Shown here: positions 7,839-17,534 of the stretch, piece by piece | How the letters are laid out: every line of letters begins with the position of its first letter | How positions within the stretch are numbered: position 1 is the stretch's first letter | The notes under the pieces: generated by a model | The model's database searches: none | Told to the model about the DNA's origin: nothing | Seen by the model: the letters and a program-made list of their open reading frames with translations, nothing else | Translations under genes and position numbers: made by a program | NCBI RefSeq assembly: GCF_003991565.1 | Contig: NZ_CP032819.1 | Coordinates: 3,348,001-3,412,000 of the forward strand | Length of the DNA: 64,000 bases | DNA from: Butyricimonas faecalis | Lineage (GTDB): Bacteria > Bacteroidota > Bacteroidia > Bacteroidales > Marinifilaceae | Reading direction: 5' to 3'

Positions 7839-7929
7839 ATATAATAGGTGTAAGGTATTTTTAGCTGATTATTAGAAAAATAATTGTTTTTTCCATGAAG
7901 AGATAAATTATTTTATATATTCGCGTCGA

Positions 7930-8112
7930 TTTTGGTGAGTCCCATGCAGTCTGTATGGGATGTAAGGGAATCCGGTGAGAGTCCGGAACAATACCCGTTG
8001 CTGTAATCTCTTTCCCGTTACGCGGGAAGTGCTTAGTTTCCTCATGCCACTGGTTTATCTGGGAAGGCGACATAAGCGGAGAAAGTCAGAAAACCTGCCT
8101 GAATCAGATGTT
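7930..8112 (+). promoter_or_regulatory. Cobalamin (adenosylcobalamin-class) riboswitch
   Basis: Conserved cobalamin aptamer pieces appear in the right order: GGGAATCCGGTGAGAGTCCGG, then CCCGTTGCTGTAA, then GCCACTGG ... GGGAAGG, and the B12 box AGTCAGAAAACCTGCCT at 8084-8100. The edges are estimated. It lies about 140 nt upstream of the TonB receptor start and is expected to repress the receptor operon when cobalamin is plentiful. A TATATTCG sequence at 7916-7923 may be the -7 box. A small hairpin at the start codon (8227-8251) suggests control at translation. This element, together with the leader around it, accounts for the gene-free stretch 7781-8249. Confidence 0.93.
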
Positions 8113-8226
8113 TTTATTGTTCTCGGGAATAAGGATGATAAAAAAGGAAAAATATAGCTGTTGTTTTTGTTAACAGTAACATTTATGAAACCACGGATGT
8201 GCGTGCTGTCATGTGGCGTTTATATA

Positions 8227-8251
8227 ATGTTTATGAAAAAATAATAAACAT
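8227..8251 (+). promoter_or_regulatory. Hairpin sequestering the start codon of the TonB receptor
   Basis: ATGTTTAT (8227-8234) pairs perfectly with ATAAACAT (8244-8251) around a 9-nt A-rich loop. The first two bases of the start codon at 8250 lie in the 3' arm. This is a natural expression platform for translational control by the upstream riboswitch, though the switching partner has not been identified. Confidence 0.45.
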
Positions 8252-10469
8252 GAAAAGTATCTTGTTGCTAGTATGTGGCGTGTTTGTATTGAATTTTGTG
8301 CCAATGTCGAGGCTTATGGCGATTCAACCGGAAGTGATGGCTGATTCGGTGAAAACGGTAAAGTTGACCGGAAAGGTTGTGGATGTTGAAACGGGGGAAG
8401 CGATACCTTTATCAACGATCTTGGTAAAAGAGCTGGGTTGGGGAAGTGTTTGCGATACGGAAGGGAAGTTTAAGATTGACGTGCCTGTTAATCGTAAAGC
8501 AACTTTGACGGTTCGTTCTGTCGGGTATGAGACTCGTGAAGTTGATGTGGCTCCTGGAACGATCTCCGGGCTTGTTGTTAAGCTGAAAAAGAGCCTGTTG
8601 AATTTGGACGAAGTGGTTATTACAGGTACGAGAACGGAGAAGGTGATTTCCGAGGCTCCCGTGATGACCCGTGTCGTTTCTGCCGAGGAGTTACAACGGA
8701 ATGATTACGAGAGTATGATGGATGTTCTGGAGTACAATATTCCGGGGCTTCGTTTTAACGTGGATCCTCGCGGTAATAATATCCAGATTCAGGGATTGGA
8801 AAATAGTTATATCCTTATTTTGGTAGATGGGGAGAGATTATCCCAGACACCCGGGGGACCCATCGATTTCGAACGGCTGAGTACGTCCAATATTAAACGG
8901 ATTGAGATTTTGAAAGGTGCGGCTTCTGCTCTTTACGGGTCGAGTGCCATGGGTATGGTCGTGAATATCATCACGGATTCTCCGAAACGCTCCTTGGAAG
9001 GCTGGGCAAAAGTCCGTTATTCTAAGTTTAATGACTTGCAGTTGGATGCCGGGATCGGGTTGGCTCACAAGGGATTTTTCTCCCAGACTCTTTTCCGTCG
9101 TAATTCCACGGATGGATATGATCTTACGCCTGAAACACCCCAATCTTACACGATGAATCCTTCGCATGATATGAATATAGAGGAGAAGGTAGGATGGAAT
9201 AATGAACGGACGAAAGTGATGGCTTCGGCTTCTTTTTATTGGAATGAAATAAAGAATCCGCCCAAGGGAGAATCTCCAACGCATTATCGTAGTTTGAACA
9301 AGACGTTCCGAGCATCATTGGAGCATGCTTTCGGGGAAGAGAATAAGTTGTATGCAGTGTATTACGGAGATTTTTATACCCGTAAGACCGTGTATGATTT
9401 GATTGACCTCGCAGATAGTACGAATGCGACTTCTCACGAGCAAACAGTCCGTTTGACGGATATTTATAGTCCCTTGAAGAACGTGGAGATTGTTGGCGGA
9501 GTTGAGTGGAACTGGACTCGAAATTATAATAAGATGCAATACGGCAAGGAACAGACCGTGAGAAAAGTGAATGATGCGAATGTTTTCGTGCAGGTGGATT
9601 GGCAGATATTGCCGGAGCTGGATTTGGTGGGAGGCTTCCGTTACACGCACCATTCTGTTTTTGGTGATGCGTATACCCCGAAAGTAAATTTGATGTATGC
9701 TCCCGGTAGCTTTAAATTCCGTGCCGGGTATAGTCGGGGATTTAAAGCACCCGGTTTGACGGAGTTGTATTCTGATTTTAACATGGGGAGTGTGTCGCAT
9801 AATATTGGAAATCCAGACTTAAAACCAGAGTATTCCAATTATGTTTCGGTTTCCGCAGAATATACTTACAATGGGCGGTTGAGTGCAAGCGTGGAAGGAT
9901 ACCAGAACACGATAAAAGATAAAATTAATTCTTTTATCATTGACGTGGAAGATCCGGCACCGGGACAGCTGGGAGCGGAAATGCATTATGCAAATGTGGA
10001 GGCCGTGCGTATTCGCGGGGTAGAAGGGACATTGACGTATTACCCGATGAAGCAATTGTTACTGAGGGGAACTTATGCTTATACCGATGCGAGAGATCGG
10101 GAGACGGATTTGCAATTGTCCGGAAATGCAAAACATGCTTTGAATTTTACCACGACATTGCGCGGTAAATTGTTGAAACGAGATGGTTCTGTTTCTCTCT
10201 CCGGACGTTGGACTTCTAAGAAGTTGTCACAGAGTAAATCCACGGAAACGGACGATAGCGGTCAAGAAATAGAGGTGATTCGTGAAAGAACAAAACCGGC
10301 TTATAGTCTTTGGAAGTTGGTGGCCCAATATACGCCTTGGCAAAAGAAGTTTATGAGGTTGACGTTAACAGGTGGAATTCAGAATTTATTTGATTATACG
10401 GATACGAAACATTACACGACGTATGATGCTGGACGCCGCTTCTTCGGTTCTGTGATATTCCGTTTCTAA
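8250..10469 (+). CDS. TonB-dependent outer membrane receptor, BtuB-like, riboswitch controlled
   Basis: About 739 residues. I chose the ATG at 8250 because a signal peptide begins there (MKSILLLVCGVFVLNFV); a GTG at 8199 would add 17 residues. Domains in order: a carboxypeptidase-regulatory-like beta sandwich (LTGKVVDVETGEAIPLST), a TonB-box-like DEVVITGTRTEK, a plug (IPGLRFNVDPRGNNIQIQG ... LKGAASALYGSSAMGMVVN), then a 22-strand barrel ending in an aromatic residue (GSVIFRF). The cobalamin riboswitch in the leader argues for a corrinoid or cobalt-related substrate; plug features are shared by BtuB and heme receptors such as HmuR, so sequence alone does not settle it. It heads an operon with a HmuY-type lipoprotein and a CobN/HmuS-like protein. 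Confidence 0.9.
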   Translation: MKSILLLVCGVFVLNFVPMSRLMAIQPEVMADSVKTVKLTGKVVDVETGEAIPLSTILVKELGWGSVCDTEGKFKIDVPVNRKATLTVRSVGYETREVDVAPGTISGLVVKLKKSLLNLDEVVITGTRTEKVISEAPVMTRVVSAEELQRNDYESMMDVLEYNIPGLRFNVDPRGNNIQIQGLENSYILILVDGERLSQTPGGPIDFERLSTSNIKRIEILKGAASALYGSSAMGMVVNIITDSPKRSLEGWAKVRYSKFNDLQLDAGIGLAHKGFFSQTLFRRNSTDGYDLTPETPQSYTMNPSHDMNIEEKVGWNNERTKVMASASFYWNEIKNPPKGESPTHYRSLNKTFRASLEHAFGEENKLYAVYYGDFYTRKTVYDLIDLADSTNATSHEQTVRLTDIYSPLKNVEIVGGVEWNWTRNYNKMQYGKEQTVRKVNDANVFVQVDWQILPELDLVGGFRYTHHSVFGDAYTPKVNLMYAPGSFKFRAGYSRGFKAPGLTELYSDFNMGSVSHNIGNPDLKPEYSNYVSVSAEYTYNGRLSASVEGYQNTIKDKINSFIIDVEDPAPGQLGAEMHYANVEAVRIRGVEGTLTYYPMKQLLLRGTYAYTDARDRETDLQLSGNAKHALNFTTTLRGKLLKRDGSVSLSGRWTSKKLSQSKSTETDDSGQEIEVIRERTKPAYSLWKLVAQYTPWQKKFMRLTLTGGIQNLFDYTDTKHYTTYDAGRRFFGSVIFRF

Positions 10470-10506
10470 TAATATGAAAATCTTTAACTTATAATATTGA
10501 TATAGG

Positions 10507-11691
10507 ATGAAAAAGTTTAATTTAAAATCATGCCTCATGCTATTGGCTTGTTTGGCATTTTCGTTTAATTTTATGGCTTGTACAGATGATGATGGTGACA
10601 GTGATGGCCCGGAGGTAGATGATTCTATCCGTACTCGTACTTTTGAATCGGCAGATTATAATAGCGGTTGGAAATATTTTTCTTTCAAAAAAGGAAATTT
10701 TGTCGAATTGACAGCAGAACAGGCCACGACAAGTTTGGAGTGGGATGTTGCTTTCAATCGTTACTATGTGAAAACCAATAGTGGGACTTCCGGAAAAGGA
10801 AAGGGTGGAGTGCTTGATTCTGGAGAGACAACTTTTGCTGCTGTTACTGGGGATGTGAATGCCGAGTTTGTAGTAGATGATTCTTTGAGGATCATGACTA
10901 CGATGGGAAATTTTACGAAAGATTCTTATAATCCGGGAATACAATGTGAAGGTTCCAATAGTTGGGCTTGGTATAAATATATGGAGTCTACTTGGTATTA
11001 TAATCACAATGTTTTTGTTTTCCGTTCTGCTGATGGAAAGAATTGTGCAAAAGTGATTTTCGATACTTACAAAGATAAACTAGGAAATTCTGGTCACATT
11101 ACATTCCGTTATATGTATGATGGAGAGGCTGATGCCGACATAGAACAGGGAGGAGAGCAACCGGAAGAACCGGAAACACCTGTTACGAACAAAGTGGTTT
11201 ATGTCGCTTCTTCAAATGCAACAGATCCATGGAAGTATTTTTCTTTTGCTAAAGGGGACTTTGTTGACTTGACAGAGGAACAAGCAGCAACTAGCTTAGA
11301 TTGGGATATTGCATTTCAACGTTATTATATTCGTACGAATAGCGGAACCTCCGGTAAAGGTCAAGGTGGTGCTTTGGATATGAATAAGACGAGTTTTGAT
11401 GATGTGCCAAATGTACCGACATCTGGTTATACAATAGATAAGTTGGTTAACATGATGGCCGGGATGGGAAGTTTTGAGGAGAAGAGTGGAAATCCTGCAT
11501 TCCAATGTAAAGGACAACCAACGTGGGCATGGTTTAATGCTCCTGCAGAAATGAAATGGTATTATAATAATAACGTTTTTGCTATTCAAACGGCAGATGG
11601 AAAACATTGGGCAAAGATTATAATGAAGACCTATAAGGGTACGAATGAAAAGGGAAATATAGAATTTGAATATGTCTATCCTGCAAAATGA
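10507..11691 (+). CDS. Lipoprotein with two tandem HmuY-like domains
   Basis: A 394-residue predicted lipoprotein (lipobox FMAC near residue 25, followed by an Asp-rich linker typical of surface export in Bacteroidota). Two HmuY-family domains repeat head to tail: about residues 40-200 and 235-394. Matching blocks are WKYFSFKKGNFVELTAEQA / WKYFSFAKGDFVDLTEEQA, WDVAFNRYYVKTNSGTSGKG / WDIAFQRYYIRTNSGTSGKG, and WYYNHNVFVFRSADGK / WYYNNNVFAIQTADGK. HmuY of Porphyromonas is a heme-binding lipoprotein serving the TonB receptor HmuR. Here the gene is under a cobalamin riboswitch, so a corrinoid ligand is plausible (inference). It starts 37 bp after the receptor gene. The linker (EQGGEQPEEPETPV) is acidic and Pro-rich. 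Confidence 0.85.
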   Translation: MKKFNLKSCLMLLACLAFSFNFMACTDDDGDSDGPEVDDSIRTRTFESADYNSGWKYFSFKKGNFVELTAEQATTSLEWDVAFNRYYVKTNSGTSGKGKGGVLDSGETTFAAVTGDVNAEFVVDDSLRIMTTMGNFTKDSYNPGIQCEGSNSWAWYKYMESTWYYNHNVFVFRSADGKNCAKVIFDTYKDKLGNSGHITFRYMYDGEADADIEQGGEQPEEPETPVTNKVVYVASSNATDPWKYFSFAKGDFVDLTEEQAATSLDWDIAFQRYYIRTNSGTSGKGQGGALDMNKTSFDDVPNVPTSGYTIDKLVNMMAGMGSFEEKSGNPAFQCKGQPTWAWFNAPAEMKWYYNNNVFAIQTADGKHWAKIIMKTYKGTNEKGNIEFEYVYPAK

Positions 11692-11714
11692 CAGGATGTA
11701 AATAATAGTGTTTG

Positions 11715-11743
11715 TTACCCCCGGAGTTTAGGCTCCGGGGTAA
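11715..11743 (+). terminator. Strong hairpin between the HmuY-like gene and the CobN-like gene
   Basis: TTACCCCCGGAG pairs with CTCCGGGGTAA (11 bp with one bulged C) around a 6-nt loop. No T-run follows. It may stabilise the upstream mRNA or lower expression of the downstream giant gene rather than stop all transcription. Confidence 0.5.
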
Positions 11744-11767
11744 TTTGGTTTATTAAAATCTGATGTT

Positions 11768-14700
11768 ATGGGATTGAAATCTTTTGTCCGTACGCGTAGA
11801 AAGATATTGTTAAAGGTGGGATTGGTGGTTATCCTGCTTTGCTGTATCTGGGGGCTTTATTCCCGTTACTTTGCCCCGACTCGGGTTGCATTAATTAATT
11901 TTCCTGCTTATCAGGCATCTAGTATCGCTTTGGCGAATGACAGTCGGATGATACAGGTAGATGCATTGAAACCGGAGGATGCAAGTAAGTTGAAAAATTA
12001 TGATGTTGTTTTATTTTTTGGTCCCGGATTACGTTTAAATGGAGAACAAGCCGCGGCAATTCAGACAGCCGGGGCGAAAGGGACTGCGGTGTACACCTTG
12101 ATATTTTCTTCTGGGGTAATTACGAATCATAATGTGGATAGTCTTCAGCAGGAACGCATTGGAGATTATTACGGAAATGGTAATAAGACGAATTACCGTA
12201 ATCTGCTTTATTTCTGCCGTGCAGAACTCGATAAGCATAAGCTTTTTGCAACAGTTCCGGCTGATCCGCAACATTTGCCTTCTAATTTTTATTGGCATTT
12301 GGGAGATGATAACTATTTTACAGATTTGGACGGGTACAACAGCTATTATCGCAAAAATGGTTTTTATAAGGAGGGGGCTCCTTCCATAGCTATTGTTTCC
12401 GGGATGACTTCTCCTTTAAGCGGGAACCGGGCAAATGTGGATACATTAGTTGTCAGTTTGGAACGTGCTGGTTTTAACGTGTATCCCGTTTACGCGGCAG
12501 GAAAACGTTTACAGATGTTGCAGGAAGTTTCTCCCGATGCCGTGATTTATCTGCCGATGGGGCGTTTGGGAAGTGATAAAAGCGTGGAGTGGTTACGGGA
12601 ACGTAATATTCCGTTGTTTTGTCCGCTAACTCTTTTGCAGGAACGAGATGAATGGGAAAATGATCCGCGAGGATTGGTTGGGGGGTATCTGTCGGCTAGC
12701 GTGGTATTGCCGGAAATTGACGGGGGTACTCGTTCGCAAGTGCTTTCCGTGCAGGATGCTGATAAGAACGGGTATTATCAATTCGTTCCTGTGACGGATC
12801 GGGTAAAGAATTTGGTTGACGGTATTTATAATCAAATACAACTTCAACGTAAAGAGAATAAGGATAAACGGTTGGCAATTGTCTACTTGAAAGGAGCTGG
12901 ACAAAGTGCGTTGACTGCTGCCGGGCTTGAAGTTGCTCCATCACTTTATGCTTTTTTGAAACGGTTGAAAGCGGAAGGTTATACCGTGGAGAATATTCCG
13001 GAAACGGAAAAAGAATTTGAGGCTTTACTCCAACGTGAAGGAAGTGTTTTTGGAAGTTATGCCAAAGGAAAAATGGCGGAATTTATGGCAACAGCCCATC
13101 CGGAATGGATTAATAAAACCGATTATGAGCGATGGGCCCAAGAGGTTCTTACCCCGGAGAAATATGCGGAAGTCGTGAAACAATATGGAGAGGCACCTGG
13201 AGAATACATGAGTGGGGTAAAAAATGGCGAACCGGCTTTGGCATTTTCTTGTTTGCGTTTTGGAAATGTAGTGTTAATGCCACAACCTGTTGCGGCGGCC
13301 GGAGATAATGAATTTCAGATTTTACACGGGGCAGAAGTGGCTCCTCCCCATGCTTATATTGCACCCTATTTGTGGATTCAGAAGGGTTTTCGGGCTGATG
13401 CTTTAATTCATTTTGGTACGCATGGAAGTTTGGAATTTACTCCCGGAAAACAAGTGGCTTTGTCATCAGGGGATTGGCCGGACCGATTAATAGGGACTGT
13501 TCCTCATTTTTATTATTACACGATTGCTAACGTGGGAGAAGGTATCGTCGCTAAACGTCGGACGTATGCATCATTGGTGTCGTACTTGACTCCTCCTTTT
13601 ATGGAGAGTCAGACTCGGGGACAGTATGAAGAGTTGTTCCGGTTGATTGCAGATTATGATCGTACGGGGGAGAAGGAACAGCCGATGTGGGCAAAACGGA
13701 TTAAAAGTAAGGTGTTAAGTCTTGGCCTGCATCATGATTTACAAATGGATAGCGTGGCTACAAAGCCTTGTACGGAGAAAGAAATCCGGAAAATAGAGAG
13801 TTTTGCGGAAGAGATTGCCAATGAAAAAATGACGGGACGGTTGTATACTTTAGGACAGCCTTTTACTGGAGAAGATATTCGCTCTACGGTTATTGCCATG
13901 TGTGCAGAGCCGTTAGCTTATAGTTTTGCCCGTCTTGACAAGCAAAAAGGACGGATTACTTCCGAGCAGTTTTCTGATAATGTGTATGTGAATCGTCATT
14001 ACGTGGCTAACGCTCGGAAACAGGTTGAAGAGTTGTTGCGTTCGGGGAAAGAATTGACCTTGGAGCAATTGGGCGTGAGTCAGGCGGATGTGATGCGTGC
14101 CCGTGCGACAGAAATGGCTCTTAACCCGAAACAATTGTCGATGAGTGAAATGATGGCAATGGCTTCTGATGCGGGTAATAATATATCGGAGGGAGTGAAA
14201 AAAAGTGATGGTGGAATGAAAATGCCTGCCGGGATTCCCAAGATCGGTAAGATGCCCGATTGGGTAAAGAAACGCATCGAGGCCCGTAAGAAAGCGGAGC
14301 GGGAGGGAAAGAAGCCTGTATTGCCGGAAGTGCCGCAAGAAGATAAAGAATTTGCCAAAGCGGTGAGTGAGATACAGCAGGTTGCCGGGCACGTGCAGGC
14401 TTATGCCCAGTGTTTAAGTGAGTCACCCGAACAGGAGATGCAGTCTTTACTGAATGCATTGAATGGCGGTTTTGTGATTCCTTCTCCGGGAGGAGACGCT
14501 GTGCGTAACCCCAATACGTTGCCTACTGGACGCAATTTGTTTGCTATTAATGCAGAGTCAACTCCGGGAGTGAGGGCTTGGGACGAGGGGAAAGCTTTGG
14601 CCCAGGCAACTATTGATCAATATCGTAAAAAGCATGGAACTTATCCTCGTAAGGTAAGTTACACTTTCTGGGCAGGAGAGTTTATAGAAACGGAGGGGGC

Positions 14701-16015
14701 AACTTTAGCGCAGGCAATGTATATGCTAGGGGTCGCTCCCGTACGTGACGGGATGAACCGGGTGACAGACTTGCGGTTAATTCCGTCAGCCGAATTGGGG
14801 CGTCCGAGAATTGATATTGTCGTGCAGACATCCGGACAGTTACGGGATGTTGCCGCATCACGGTTGGAGTTGCTCACGAAAGCGGTAGCGTTGGCGGCGC
14901 AGTCTAAAAATGATACGTGTGGGAACTATGTTGTTTCCGGTACGATGGAGGCAGAGAAGTTATTGGTAGATAAAGGTTTTTCTCCGAAAGAAGCACGGGA
15001 ATTGTCCATGGTGAGGGTGTTTGGTGGTGCTGGGTATGGTACAGGGATTACGGGATTGGTGGAAAAAGGAGATGCTTGGGAACGGGAGTCGGAGATTGCA
15101 GACCGGTATTTGAGTAATATGGGAATGATGTATGGCGATAGCAAGGCGTGGGGGAAATATAGCCGGGATGCTTTTGAGGTCGCTCTCCACGATGCGGATG
15201 TGGTCATTCAACCCCGGCAAAGTAATACATGGGGTGCTTTAAGTCTGGACCATGTATATGAGTTTATGGGAGGATTGAATTTAGCCGTGCGGGAAGTGAC
15301 AGGTAAGGAACCGGAGACTTATCTGAGTGACTATAGGAATCGTAATCATGTGAGAATGCAGGAGTTGAAAGAAGCTATCGGAGTGGAGGGACGTACAACA
15401 ATTTTTAACCCGGCTTTTATTCGGGAAAAAATGAAAGGAGGGGCATCGTCTTCTTCTATTTTTGCTGAAACCATTCGGAATAGTTACGGTTGGAATGTCA
15501 TGAAACCGTCAGTTATAGGAAAGGATTTTTGGGATCGGGTGTATGACGTGTATGTGAAAGATAATTTGAAGTTGGGTATTCATGAATTTTTCAAACAGGA
15601 AAGTCCTGCTGCTTTAGAAGAGATTACGGCGGTGATGCTTGAAACGGCACGTAAAGGCTACTGGCCGGCAACGGAAGAGCAGTTAGCCGGTGTTGCAAAC
15701 TTACATACCCGTTTACTGGAAGAATATCGCCCGGCTTGTACCGGATTTGTTTGTGATAACCAGAAATTACAGGATTTTGTTGCTTCACATGCAGATAAAA
15801 ATCATGTTGAGGCTTATCGTAAAAATATAGATGTTGTTCGGGAGGTACAAGTGGAACATGCCCAGAATGGAGTGGTATTGAAGAAAGAGGAATTAAATCG
15901 GGCTAATCAGATACAGCAAGATTCTGGGGAAAGCCGGAAGACTCTCTTTATTGCATTGTTATTGGTGGGTGTGATATTGATTATAGTAATGGTATTTTTG
16001 AAGCGGAAAAAATAA
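11768..16015 (+). CDS. CobN/HmuS-like chelatase-family protein, membrane anchored at both ends
   Basis: A 1415-residue member of the CobN/BchH/ChlH large-subunit family. The family block GTHGSLEFTPGKQ lies near residue 550; further CobN-type segments include NPNTLPTGRNLFAINAEST, WAGEFIETEGATLAQAMYML, GRPRIDIVVQTSGQLRD and DTCGNYVVSGT. A membrane segment follows a basic N-terminus (residues about 15-32, then SRYFAPT), and a second sits at the C-terminus (LFIALLLVGVILIIVMVFL) before KRKK. By the positive-inside rule the roughly 1350-residue catalytic part would face the periplasm, unlike the soluble cytoplasmic CobN of cobalamin synthesis. HmuS of hmu heme operons is the closest architecture I know. 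In this riboswitch operon a role in corrinoid or tetrapyrrole metal handling is likely (inference). No CobS/CobT or ChlD/ChlI partner genes are nearby. Confidence 0.88.
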   Translation: MGLKSFVRTRRKILLKVGLVVILLCCIWGLYSRYFAPTRVALINFPAYQASSIALANDSRMIQVDALKPEDASKLKNYDVVLFFGPGLRLNGEQAAAIQTAGAKGTAVYTLIFSSGVITNHNVDSLQQERIGDYYGNGNKTNYRNLLYFCRAELDKHKLFATVPADPQHLPSNFYWHLGDDNYFTDLDGYNSYYRKNGFYKEGAPSIAIVSGMTSPLSGNRANVDTLVVSLERAGFNVYPVYAAGKRLQMLQEVSPDAVIYLPMGRLGSDKSVEWLRERNIPLFCPLTLLQERDEWENDPRGLVGGYLSASVVLPEIDGGTRSQVLSVQDADKNGYYQFVPVTDRVKNLVDGIYNQIQLQRKENKDKRLAIVYLKGAGQSALTAAGLEVAPSLYAFLKRLKAEGYTVENIPETEKEFEALLQREGSVFGSYAKGKMAEFMATAHPEWINKTDYERWAQEVLTPEKYAEVVKQYGEAPGEYMSGVKNGEPALAFSCLRFGNVVLMPQPVAAAGDNEFQILHGAEVAPPHAYIAPYLWIQKGFRADALIHFGTHGSLEFTPGKQVALSSGDWPDRLIGTVPHFYYYTIANVGEGIVAKRRTYASLVSYLTPPFMESQTRGQYEELFRLIADYDRTGEKEQPMWAKRIKSKVLSLGLHHDLQMDSVATKPCTEKEIRKIESFAEEIANEKMTGRLYTLGQPFTGEDIRSTVIAMCAEPLAYSFARLDKQKGRITSEQFSDNVYVNRHYVANARKQVEELLRSGKELTLEQLGVSQADVMRARATEMALNPKQLSMSEMMAMASDAGNNISEGVKKSDGGMKMPAGIPKIGKMPDWVKKRIEARKKAEREGKKPVLPEVPQEDKEFAKAVSEIQQVAGHVQAYAQCLSESPEQEMQSLLNALNGGFVIPSPGGDAVRNPNTLPTGRNLFAINAESTPGVRAWDEGKALAQATIDQYRKKHGTYPRKVSYTFWAGEFIETEGATLAQAMYMLGVAPVRDGMNRVTDLRLIPSAELGRPRIDIVVQTSGQLRDVAASRLELLTKAVALAAQSKNDTCGNYVVSGTMEAEKLLVDKGFSPKEARELSMVRVFGGAGYGTGITGLVEKGDAWERESEIADRYLSNMGMMYGDSKAWGKYSRDAFEVALHDADVVIQPRQSNTWGALSLDHVYEFMGGLNLAVREVTGKEPETYLSDYRNRNHVRMQELKEAIGVEGRTTIFNPAFIREKMKGGASSSSIFAETIRNSYGWNVMKPSVIGKDFWDRVYDVYVKDNLKLGIHEFFKQESPAALEEITAVMLETARKGYWPATEEQLAGVANLHTRLLEEYRPACTGFVCDNQKLQDFVASHADKNHVEAYRKNIDVVREVQVEHAQNGVVLKKEELNRANQIQQDSGESRKTLFIALLLVGVILIIVMVFLKRKK

Positions 16016-16336: not shown

Positions 16337-17110
16337 ATGAAAGGGTGGTTATGTGATTTAACATGGATTAGTTTTGTGGCGTTCACTATGTTATTAGGTG
16401 GATGTAGCGAGAATATTCAAGAAGATTTCTTGAATGAGAATAATATTACTGAGATGTATATAGATTCTGTTTTTTTAGGGTTTGAGGGAGATTTGATTTA
16501 TCCGGAAGTGATTTGGGGAAATGTGGATACTTATCTTCGTGCTTTTGAAAGAATGAAAGCTCATTTGAAACTGAAAGATGGGGCTTTGGTTTGGAACATA
16601 AAAAATGGAGACGAGTTGAATATCTCGGAAAATATTTTTGAGTATGTTACTGGATGGTGGAGTAGGCAGAATGAAAAGTTGAATTCTGGCGATTATAAAC
16701 TCGAAATTCAGGGGAATGACTATTATATTATGCCAATAAAAGTTGAAGAAGGGTTTGGACAATCAAGGGTTGGACAATATTTAATTGGTGGGCAACATCG
16801 ATATAATATAAATATATTAAAGCAACTACATTCATATGCTAGACCAGGAAGATCTTTATATTATTATATAAATAACTTGGATGATTACTCTCTTTTTAGG
16901 CCCAATTTGTTTTACGGGGCTACAAGTTCTTTCGGACGTTGGAGTTACAATTGTGATAATGCTTGTTTCTATTCGTCTCGTATTGATTGTGTGTATAATG
17001 AAATTGCCGGATCTGATACAGAGGTTCGTGCGGACGAGGTGTGGGATAAAGTAAAAGGTCGAAATGGCTTGCCTCTTGTCTCCATTATGAATTACAGGTA
17101 TTATCAATAA
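16337..17110 (+). CDS. Lipoprotein of unknown family, long paralog
   Basis: A 257-residue predicted lipoprotein: signal peptide with lipobox LGGC near residue 23. The first half (YIDSVFLGFEGDLI ... VDTYLRAFERMKAHLKLKDG ... WNIKNGDELNISENIFEYV) matches the next gene's product clearly; the second half, with a C/Y/R-rich stretch (RWSYNCDNACFYSSRIDC), has no counterpart there. Codon use is AT-rich compared with the genes on either side. The gene is the first of a three-gene cassette between 33-bp direct repeats. I do not recognise the family and see no catalytic motif. Confidence 0.7.
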   Translation: MKGWLCDLTWISFVAFTMLLGGCSENIQEDFLNENNITEMYIDSVFLGFEGDLIYPEVIWGNVDTYLRAFERMKAHLKLKDGALVWNIKNGDELNISENIFEYVTGWWSRQNEKLNSGDYKLEIQGNDYYIMPIKVEEGFGQSRVGQYLIGGQHRYNINILKQLHSYARPGRSLYYYINNLDDYSLFRPNLFYGATSSFGRWSYNCDNACFYSSRIDCVYNEIAGSDTEVRADEVWDKVKGRNGLPLVSIMNYRYYQ

Positions 17111-17129
17111 ATTATAAAAACAAGATTTT

Positions 17130-17534
17130 ATGAACCGATGGATTTTAAATATATGTTTATTTATGGTAATATATTCTTGTCAATCAGACAAGATTAAAAC
17201 CTATATGGGCGAGGAAATTTCTTATAAAGATTCTGTTTTTTTAGATATTCAAGGAAATTTGAATCACCATGATACGATGAGAAAGCATGTTGATACGTGG
17301 GTGCGCGCTTTGACTCGAATGGAACGGCATCATACTATTTTGAATAACCAGTTTGTATGGAATATGAAAAATGGAGCACAAGTAAAGGTATCGGACAATC
17401 TTTATGACTTTATTATTCGAGGGTGGGAGCGTGATAATGCAAGATTAAAGACAGGTAATTATGGGTTGTGGTATATAGAGGGTAATAGATATGTTACCGT
17501 TCTTATTAGAGATACTACCAGTGATCATTATTGA
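17130..17534 (+). CDS. Lipoprotein of unknown family, short paralog
   Basis: 134 residues, predicted lipoprotein (lipobox IYSC near residue 17). It aligns along its length with the first half of the preceding protein: KDSVFLDIQGNLN, VDTWVRALTRMERHHTILNN, WNMKNGAQVKVSDNLYDFI. It lacks the C-terminal ~120 residues of that paralog, so it is either a truncated duplicate or the minimal domain. It starts 19 bp after the previous stop, so co-transcription is likely. A hairpin follows. Function unknown. Confidence 0.65.
   Translation: MNRWILNICLFMVIYSCQSDKIKTYMGEEISYKDSVFLDIQGNLNHHDTMRKHVDTWVRALTRMERHHTILNNQFVWNMKNGAQVKVSDNLYDFIIRGWERDNARLKTGNYGLWYIEGNRYVTVLIRDTTSDHY

Follow-up and report, generated by a model that had tools for sequence, protein, structure and literature searches.

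A cobalamin riboswitch-led paralogue of the heme operon in Butyricimonas faecalis, and its possible part in supplying a tetrapyrrole ring for corrin synthesis

A stretch of 64,000 nucleotides (nt) of the Butyricimonas faecalis genome (GCF_003991565.1, contig NZ_CP032819.1, positions 3,348,001 to 3,412,000 of the forward strand; hereafter the window) carries a three-gene operon in which protein families of the hmu heme operons stand behind a cobalamin riboswitch, and this work considers what that operon may do. The riboswitch lies at window positions 7916–8117 on the plus strand (RF00174, cmscan match covering the whole model, 76.6 bits against a gathering threshold of 31.5, E 4.1e-17); it was recovered too in a whole-genome search, and at the gathering threshold the whole window has no other Rfam match. 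On the same strand follow an HmuR-type TonB-dependent receptor (8250–10469) with the carboxypeptidase-regulatory, plug and barrel domains of Pfam, a two-domain HmuY lipoprotein of 394 amino acids (aa; 10507–11691), matched by PF14064 in two stretches with 188.5 bits, and an HmuS/BtuS-type class I chelatase of 1415 aa (11768–16015), matched by PF02514 over residues 133–1306 with 1000.7 bits. The receptor reading frame spans 8199–10469, and the ATG at 8250, 132 nt 3′ of the riboswitch match, is its probable start; the gaps between the genes are 37 nt (receptor to HmuY) and 76 nt (HmuY to chelatase). The HmuY protein has an N-terminus of lipoprotein type (Cys25), with domain 1 at about residues 54–202 and domain 2 at about residues 240–389, while the chelatase, as read from its sequence, has hydrophobic segments at both termini, a membrane-anchored build like that of HmuS, and its best solved relative is the HmuS of Bacteroides thetaiotaomicron (9d26). 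The riboswitch score and the Pfam domains bear out the original prediction that a cobalamin riboswitch leads a TonB receptor, a double HmuY and a CobN/HmuS-like protein here.

The same prediction held that the hmuTUV genes were lacking, which stands for the window, where tblastn with the organism's own HmuT, HmuU and HmuV finds no similar match, but not for the genome, which has a complete hmuYRSTUV operon about 172 kb away (L020, C1:3174–3184 kb; L-numbers denote fetched loci, G-numbers genomes and P-numbers HmuY-type proteins). An Rfam scan of 20 kb at this operon returned no riboswitch. Its HmuS, 51 percent identical to the window chelatase, is the second of the two PF02514 genes of the genome, which in total has 14 cobalamin riboswitches and two HmuY genes with three HmuY domains between them. 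This makes the window locus a paralogue of the heme operon, and the view that it is the organism's ordinary heme operon was rejected, the canonical hmuYRSTUV being found elsewhere. HmuY proteins with large insertions occur in heme-type operons at L020:6176–7207 (343 aa) and L032:8581–9993 (470 aa).

For the placement of the chelatase, 71 chelatase reading frames of at least 1150 aa were taken from the fetched loci, and 69 of them entered the tree and the residue table; L083 and L155, at contig ends, were dropped from the tree, and the shorter contig-end pieces L087, L091 and L164 never entered. Chelatase matches had been found in 23 of 56 genomes sampled from the family, 33 of 393 from the order, and 5 of 38 and 21 of 80 from the genera of G444 and G445, and the fetched loci are part of these matches (G019, G037, G044, G046 and G047, for example, were left out). 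The 69-row tree gathers the riboswitch-led HmuS-like proteins in a single 15-row clade, supported at 100 by the Shimodaira-Hasegawa-like approximate likelihood ratio test (SH-aLRT), and the window chelatase belongs with this riboswitch-led HmuS-like (BtuS) clade. Twelve of the 13 riboswitch-led rows lie inside it, the other being the CobN-type outgroup L033, and its members without a leading riboswitch are L147, L157 and L158. For the 53 HmuS-type rows outside the clade no leading riboswitch was found (14 Rfam-scanned, 39 scanned by a pattern script alone); L161, one of these outside rows, has a riboswitch, but that one leads another gene. The label was given to nine rows by the script and to L149, L152, L153 and L156 by hand from Rfam positions; since the script recovered 12 of 14 riboswitches in the own genome and overlooked the ones of L149 and L152, a few could escape among the 39 rows without an Rfam scan. 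On these counts the riboswitch was rejected as a general feature of hmu operons.

A second tree under a mixture model (48 rows, several long-branch rows left out) again supports the clade at 100, with 12 of its rows included. On the 69-row tree the riboswitch label changes four times, against a mean of 12.1 for shuffled labels, and none of 500 shuffles is as low, a count which near-copies favour and which was obtained on a tree with a warning of long branches that meet. Within the clade three groups can be told apart. The window chelatase stands with L028 and L029 (window type), L098 with L145 and L147 (Parabacteroides type), and the nine remaining rows form a short type of some 1300 aa. That the chelatase might be the CobN of B12 synthesis was rejected by scores, the curated CobN cut-offs being missed (best 642.8 against 1248), by active-site residues, as it has His1209 and Glu1212 (HmuS numbering) at places filled by Asp and Gln in the CobN-type row L033, and by the presence of a separate CbiK. 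L033 (5001–11511, in G048) represents a third PF02514 lineage, in which a riboswitch and a TonB receptor accompany a 1272-aa CobN-type protein; the N-terminus of this protein reads signal-peptide-like, and an exported CobN would be odd.

A search of other genomes for the order riboswitch, receptor, HmuY and chelatase, which the original prediction had proposed as a check, found it in G009, G048, G486 and Parabacteroides gordonii. The closest family relatives of the window chelatase are those of G009 (97 percent identity) and G048 (75 percent), and their loci, L028 and L029, retain the riboswitch, the receptor, the double HmuY and the chelatase; directly upstream in G048 a second riboswitch leads another receptor and HmuT-, HmuU- and HmuV-like genes. 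In P. gordonii MS-1 (L098) the riboswitch is followed by receptor, single HmuY, chelatase, HmuT, HmuU and HmuV, with identities to the window of 55 percent (receptor), 58 percent (HmuY) and 60 percent (chelatase), and two further cobalamin riboswitches lie near this operon. G486 has the same R-Y-S-T-U-V arrangement, plus a separate hmuYRSTUV. Thus, of the six genes of an hmu operon the window has R-Y-S only, while the P. gordonii and G486 relatives have all six. A search of the P. gordonii genome gave no HmuS-like chelatase match besides L098, so that its one complete set stands behind a cobalamin riboswitch, and a "complete hmu operon" may not in every case point to heme. The double HmuY was rejected as a feature unique to the window, as 24 proteins (P0001–P0024) of 319–405 aa share it at 53–93 percent identity among the best 120 of 261 matches; a scan of named genomes with the single HmuY protein confirmed no relative. 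At the place of HmuY, L151 (12753–14057) and L037 (4993–6279) have lipoprotein-like proteins of 434 and 428 aa without a Pfam match, which are possible replacement capture proteins.

The heme dechelatase activity of HmuS was demonstrated in 2025 (PMC12583661); in this protein Met79 and His254 are the site-1 heme ligands, His538, Glu577, Asp1208, His1209 and Glu1212 form the catalytic site, and Ser1014, Ser1067, Gln1198, Ser1199 and Trp1202 are likely propionate contacts. These numbers were transferred via L020, whose offset from the published chain is 19 at two places, the beginning of the C-terminal part and the Gln-Ser-x-x-Trp motif. All 15 clade rows, the window included, retain His538, Glu577, Trp1202, Asp1208, His1209 and Glu1212, and likewise Ser1067, Gln1198 and Ser1199. 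The site-1 ligands are lost in 15 of 15: the place of Met79 holds Pro in six clade rows and Arg in nine (outside the clade Met in 49 of 53 and His in four), and that of His254 holds Met in 13 and Val in two, where His is kept in 53 of 53 outside. Ser1014 is replaced by Ala throughout the clade and in the CobN-type row L033 (outside Ser in 51 of 53). In the window, the alignments place these changes at the plus-strand codons of Pro86 (12023–12025, for Met79), Met264 (12557–12559, for His254) and Ala969 (14672–14674, for the predicted propionate contact Ser1014), and the local alignments around the site-1 and Ser1014 places are clear. An unbiased scan agrees: among 233 columns that at least 51 of the 53 HmuS-type rows conserve, the clade has lost three in every one of its 15 rows, namely His254, Ser1014 and a lysine at position 148 of L020, while the HmuS of the own heme operon retains both site-1 ligands. 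The own HmuS has a methionine-rich insertion of 105 aa with 19 Met; that of the window chelatase is shorter, at 76 aa with 7 Met, and the short type and L147 lack it.

The expectation of a rewired HmuS system is thus borne out, inasmuch as a chelatase that by its sequence has the membrane-anchored HmuS build is led by a riboswitch and belongs to a single clade in which heme-contact residues are changed. A heme or protoporphyrin system merely moved under cobalamin control would also have the protein families and gene order of the hmu operons and the retained catalytic residues. Against it speak the loss of both site-1 ligands from the whole clade, where His254 is present in every outside row, and the separate HmuS operon of the genome; we consider it unlikely.

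The AlphaFold model of the window HmuY (mean predicted local distance difference test score (pLDDT) 86.9, predicted template modelling score (pTM) 0.57) has, at E below 0.001, matches to HmuY-family structures and no others, with 8b6a first and P. gingivalis HmuY next. The heme histidines of the P. gingivalis protein are His134 and His166; in the window HmuY the His134 loop is shortened and the His166 place is occupied by a residue other than histidine, with methionines near both places, and Trp153, Trp155 and Trp163 are invariant across 21 aligned sequences. Among the closest solved folds are also the single-domain HmuY Bf-2 (BfrB, 8b6a) and Bf-3 (BfrC, 8b61) proteins of B. fragilis, with 29–30 and 22 percent identity to the window HmuY over the aligned part. 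Bf-2 has a preference for protoporphyrin IX and no residues that coordinate iron, and Bf-3 is reported to bind neither that porphyrin nor heme (PMC12106395); the preference of Bf-2, as the best fold match, speaks for a heme or protoporphyrin ligand.

In a receptor tree of 62 rows, which has several long branches, the window receptor sits in a five-row clade with other riboswitch-led R-Y-S receptors, nested among HmuR-type rows. Five Pfam-confirmed receptors from other own riboswitch loci are in this tree. Four of them branch away from the HmuR part, and L023:7090–9330, which belongs to the CbiK gene row, shares a neighbouring branch with the L029 extra receptor and receptors of short-type operons. 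L022:2846–5239 and L022:5262–7313 entered by length alone, are not receptors by Pfam and were not counted. With a receptor that stands among HmuR-type rows and an HmuY as lipoprotein, the operon does not match the BtuB-BtuG cobamide uptake system in its parts, and the His and Met positions of the receptor fail to discriminate between ligands.

The original prediction had read the operon as a corrinoid-handling system. On this view corrinoids would enter by way of the lipoprotein and receptor, and in the periplasm the chelatase would take cobalt out of them, put it in or swap it. The cobalamin riboswitch at the head of the operon, the Ser1014-to-Ala change common to the single CobN-type row, the two other cobalamin riboswitches beside the P. 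gordonii operon, and the proposal of cobalamin metabolism for such operons (PMC10100974) all favour this reading. However, the window receptor groups with HmuR-type rows, apart from four of the five other own riboswitch-locus receptors, the lipoprotein domains are all HmuY, the chelatase keeps the HmuS catalytic residues including the His1209 that the CobN-type row lacks, and taking cobalt out of a finished corrinoid during cobalamin shortage would probably bring little gain. This makes corrinoid handling improbable, and the gene neighbourhoods of the relatives, described below, point elsewhere.

The own genome has a corrin-ring set of CbiK, CbiL, CbiH-CbiC, CbiE-CbiT, CbiG-CbiF and CbiJ-CbiD, in which CbiK is above the Pfam cut-off and below the stricter NCBIfam one, and the CbiG and CbiJ halves are below curated cut-offs. 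The CbiK gene row (L023:6828–18177, C1:2473–2484 kb) comprises a riboswitch, a receptor, CbiK, a PepSY protein and corrin-ring genes, with CbiL slightly further on, and the N-terminus of CbiK reads signal-peptide-like, which suggests export. Searches for HemC, uroporphyrinogen-III methyltransferase and CbiK covered 26 genomes chosen by hand, 15 with a clade member and 11 without. HemC, the one of HemA, HemB, HemC and HemD that was searched for, was matched in 0 of 26 (controls positive in 11 of 14), and a uroporphyrinogen-III methyltransferase above the curated cut-off also in 0 of 26 (controls above it in 11 of 14), the best own match to the latter being the CbiF part of CbiG-CbiF. The steps to precorrin-2 are described as absent from P. 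gingivalis (PMC6461909). A cell with corrin-ring enzymes and without visible ring synthesis would need a precursor from outside.

CbiK occurs in 22 of the 26 genomes (15 of 15 with a clade member, 7 of 11 without). It lies less than 12 kb from the chelatase gene in 8 of 15 clade members versus none of the 12 HmuS-type genes from genomes that have CbiK (8 of these 12 genes share a contig with it), and this nearness counts further against a heme system merely placed under cobalamin control. In L037, L149, L151, L152, L153, L154 and L156 CbiK belongs to the same riboswitch-led gene row as the chelatase, and in L037 and L154 a CbiH-CbiC gene follows downstream. Because in relatives the chelatase is accompanied by CbiK and corrin-ring genes, the supply of a ring precursor fits better than the processing of finished corrinoids; with the HmuY-type lipoprotein and HmuR-type receptor, this pairing leaves corrinoid capture and cobalt removal or exchange without support in the form first put forward.

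The cobalamin riboswitch and the CbiK neighbourhood in relatives would also suit a scavenging of cobalt, in which cobalt-containing porphyrins are taken up and their cobalt is released for CbiK, and P. gingivalis HmuY binds cobalt protoporphyrin according to the title of a cited work. We regard this as highly unlikely, as it leaves unexplained where the ring comes from in a genome with neither a HemC match nor a methyltransferase above the cut-off.

The B. fragilis literature comes closest to the short type of the clade. The BtuS family, named after Rodionov 2003 as cited there, and BtuS1 of B. fragilis are described in PMC6460266, which gives cbiK of strain 638R as BF638R_2502 and btuS1 as BF638R_2504 or 2505. 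BtuS1 thus lies near cbiK, matching seven short-type rows here, and by this gene nearness it probably belongs in the clade of the window chelatase, a placement made without a BtuS1 row in the tree. Short-type operons lack HmuY in the gene row, and their chelatases lack the methionine-rich insertion, whereas in the window type HmuY and a portion of the insertion are still present, and in the window CbiK is not in the same operon. On heme iron a btuS1 btuS2 double mutant of B. fragilis shows poorer growth than either the parent or the single mutants, a defect that favours a heme function; the mutant still released protoporphyrin IX from heme, and the authors ascribe little or no dechelatase activity to BtuS1 and BtuS2 (PMC6460266).

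Based on these findings, we tentatively propose that the operon imports a non-heme metallated tetrapyrrole, most likely siroheme or a related metal-sirohydrochlorin, strips it of its metal and supplies the ring to CbiK for cobalt insertion, a reading drawn from sequence comparison to which we assign a probability of roughly 0.45. The riboswitch, the HmuS catalytic site, the nearness of CbiK in about half of the relatives and the changed heme-holding places are together best accounted for, in our judgement, by metal removal from a metallated precursor, and the HmuY/HmuR kind of capture parts is consistent with such a ring. The substrate of CbiK is sirohydrochlorin (PMC7689651), and siroheme would be the obvious candidate because its metal-free form is that substrate. 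First, low cobalamin would open the riboswitch, on the assumption that cobalamin represses it. The HmuY lipoprotein would then capture the ring and the receptor would import it, and the chelatase, predicted from its N-terminus to be exported, may release the metal in the periplasm through the HmuS catalytic residues. CbiK, probably exported too, could receive the free sirohydrochlorin-like ring and insert cobalt, after which the cobalt-loaded ring would proceed to CbiL and the later corrin enzymes. Since relatives without a clade chelatase also have CbiK, such a route would be accessory. In its narrowest form, a periplasmic siroheme-to-B12 metal exchange in which siroheme or another metal-sirohydrochlorin would be taken up by a cobalamin-repressed HmuR-HmuY-HmuS paralogue and freed of its iron, the bare ring then going to an exported CbiK for cobalt insertion, the proposal is possible but doubtful.

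Several points weigh against this proposal of precursor supply. The own CbiK is about 0.88 Mb from the window operon, and outside it. The same-genus genomes G006, G007, G008 and G010 have CbiK and, as their sole chelatase match, an HmuS-type one, so that the chelatase is not required for the corrin route, and CbiK in 7 of 11 genomes without a clade member makes co-occurrence by itself weak. The 0 of 26 for HemC concerns one ring-synthesis enzyme among four. With His1209 retained, unlike in the CobN-type row, the active site has stayed close to that of HmuS; Met and His are preserved near the NPDL motif of the receptor; and the methionines remaining in HmuY could still coordinate a heme-like metal. 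Finally, the poorer growth of the B. fragilis double mutant on heme suggests that the BtuS1 type may serve heme somewhat.

If precursor supply is the function, a cobalamin-controlled branch with kept catalysis and lost heme ligands would represent the turning of metal removal to another ring. The proposal makes the ring source of corrin-gene bearers without visible uroporphyrinogen-III synthesis testable, and, if true, would answer it.

Compared with known systems, the window operon resembles the hmuYRSTUV operon of B. thetaiotaomicron and its HmuS (9d26, PMC12583661) in the three protein families, the hydrophobic ends of the chelatase, and His538 and His1209 with their neighbours; it differs by the added cobalamin riboswitch, the order R-Y-S without T-U-V, the two fused HmuY domains, and the replacement of Met79, His254 and Ser1014. 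With the BtuB-BtuG, BtuH and BtuJ loci of B. thetaiotaomicron (PMC8941943, PMC12751083) it has in common a cobalamin riboswitch, a TonB receptor and a surface lipoprotein, but the lipoproteins there are of other families, and the words "CobN" and "chelatase" are absent from the main text of PMC8941943. The link between riboswitch and hmu genes is already published: hmu-like operons with divergent HmuY/HmuR and a cobalamin riboswitch exist, and PMC10100974 regards them as likely not for heme and suggests cobalamin metabolism. The operon that it names as an example, from B. fragilis NCTC 9343, lacks HmuY and carries two receptors, the idea being otherwise the same as for the window, and what it says on such operons includes no clade, residue or CbiK analysis. 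In the open-licence literature searched, we did not find the clade, the residue changes, the cbiK link or the reading as salvage of siroheme or another precursor.

Around the operon, the gene after the chelatase begins at 16337, 321 nt further on, and has no Pfam match; window 16337–17534 holds two adjoining small lipoprotein-like reading frames, alike by eye and without Pfam match. At other own cobalamin-riboswitch loci, L022:2846–10259 and L025:7310–8464, there are lipoprotein-like proteins with DUF5074 and Receptor L domains. Boxes like TAnnTTTG/TTCG occur at window 7916–7923 and at the 5′ ends of other own riboswitches, and they resemble the −7 box of Bacteroides.

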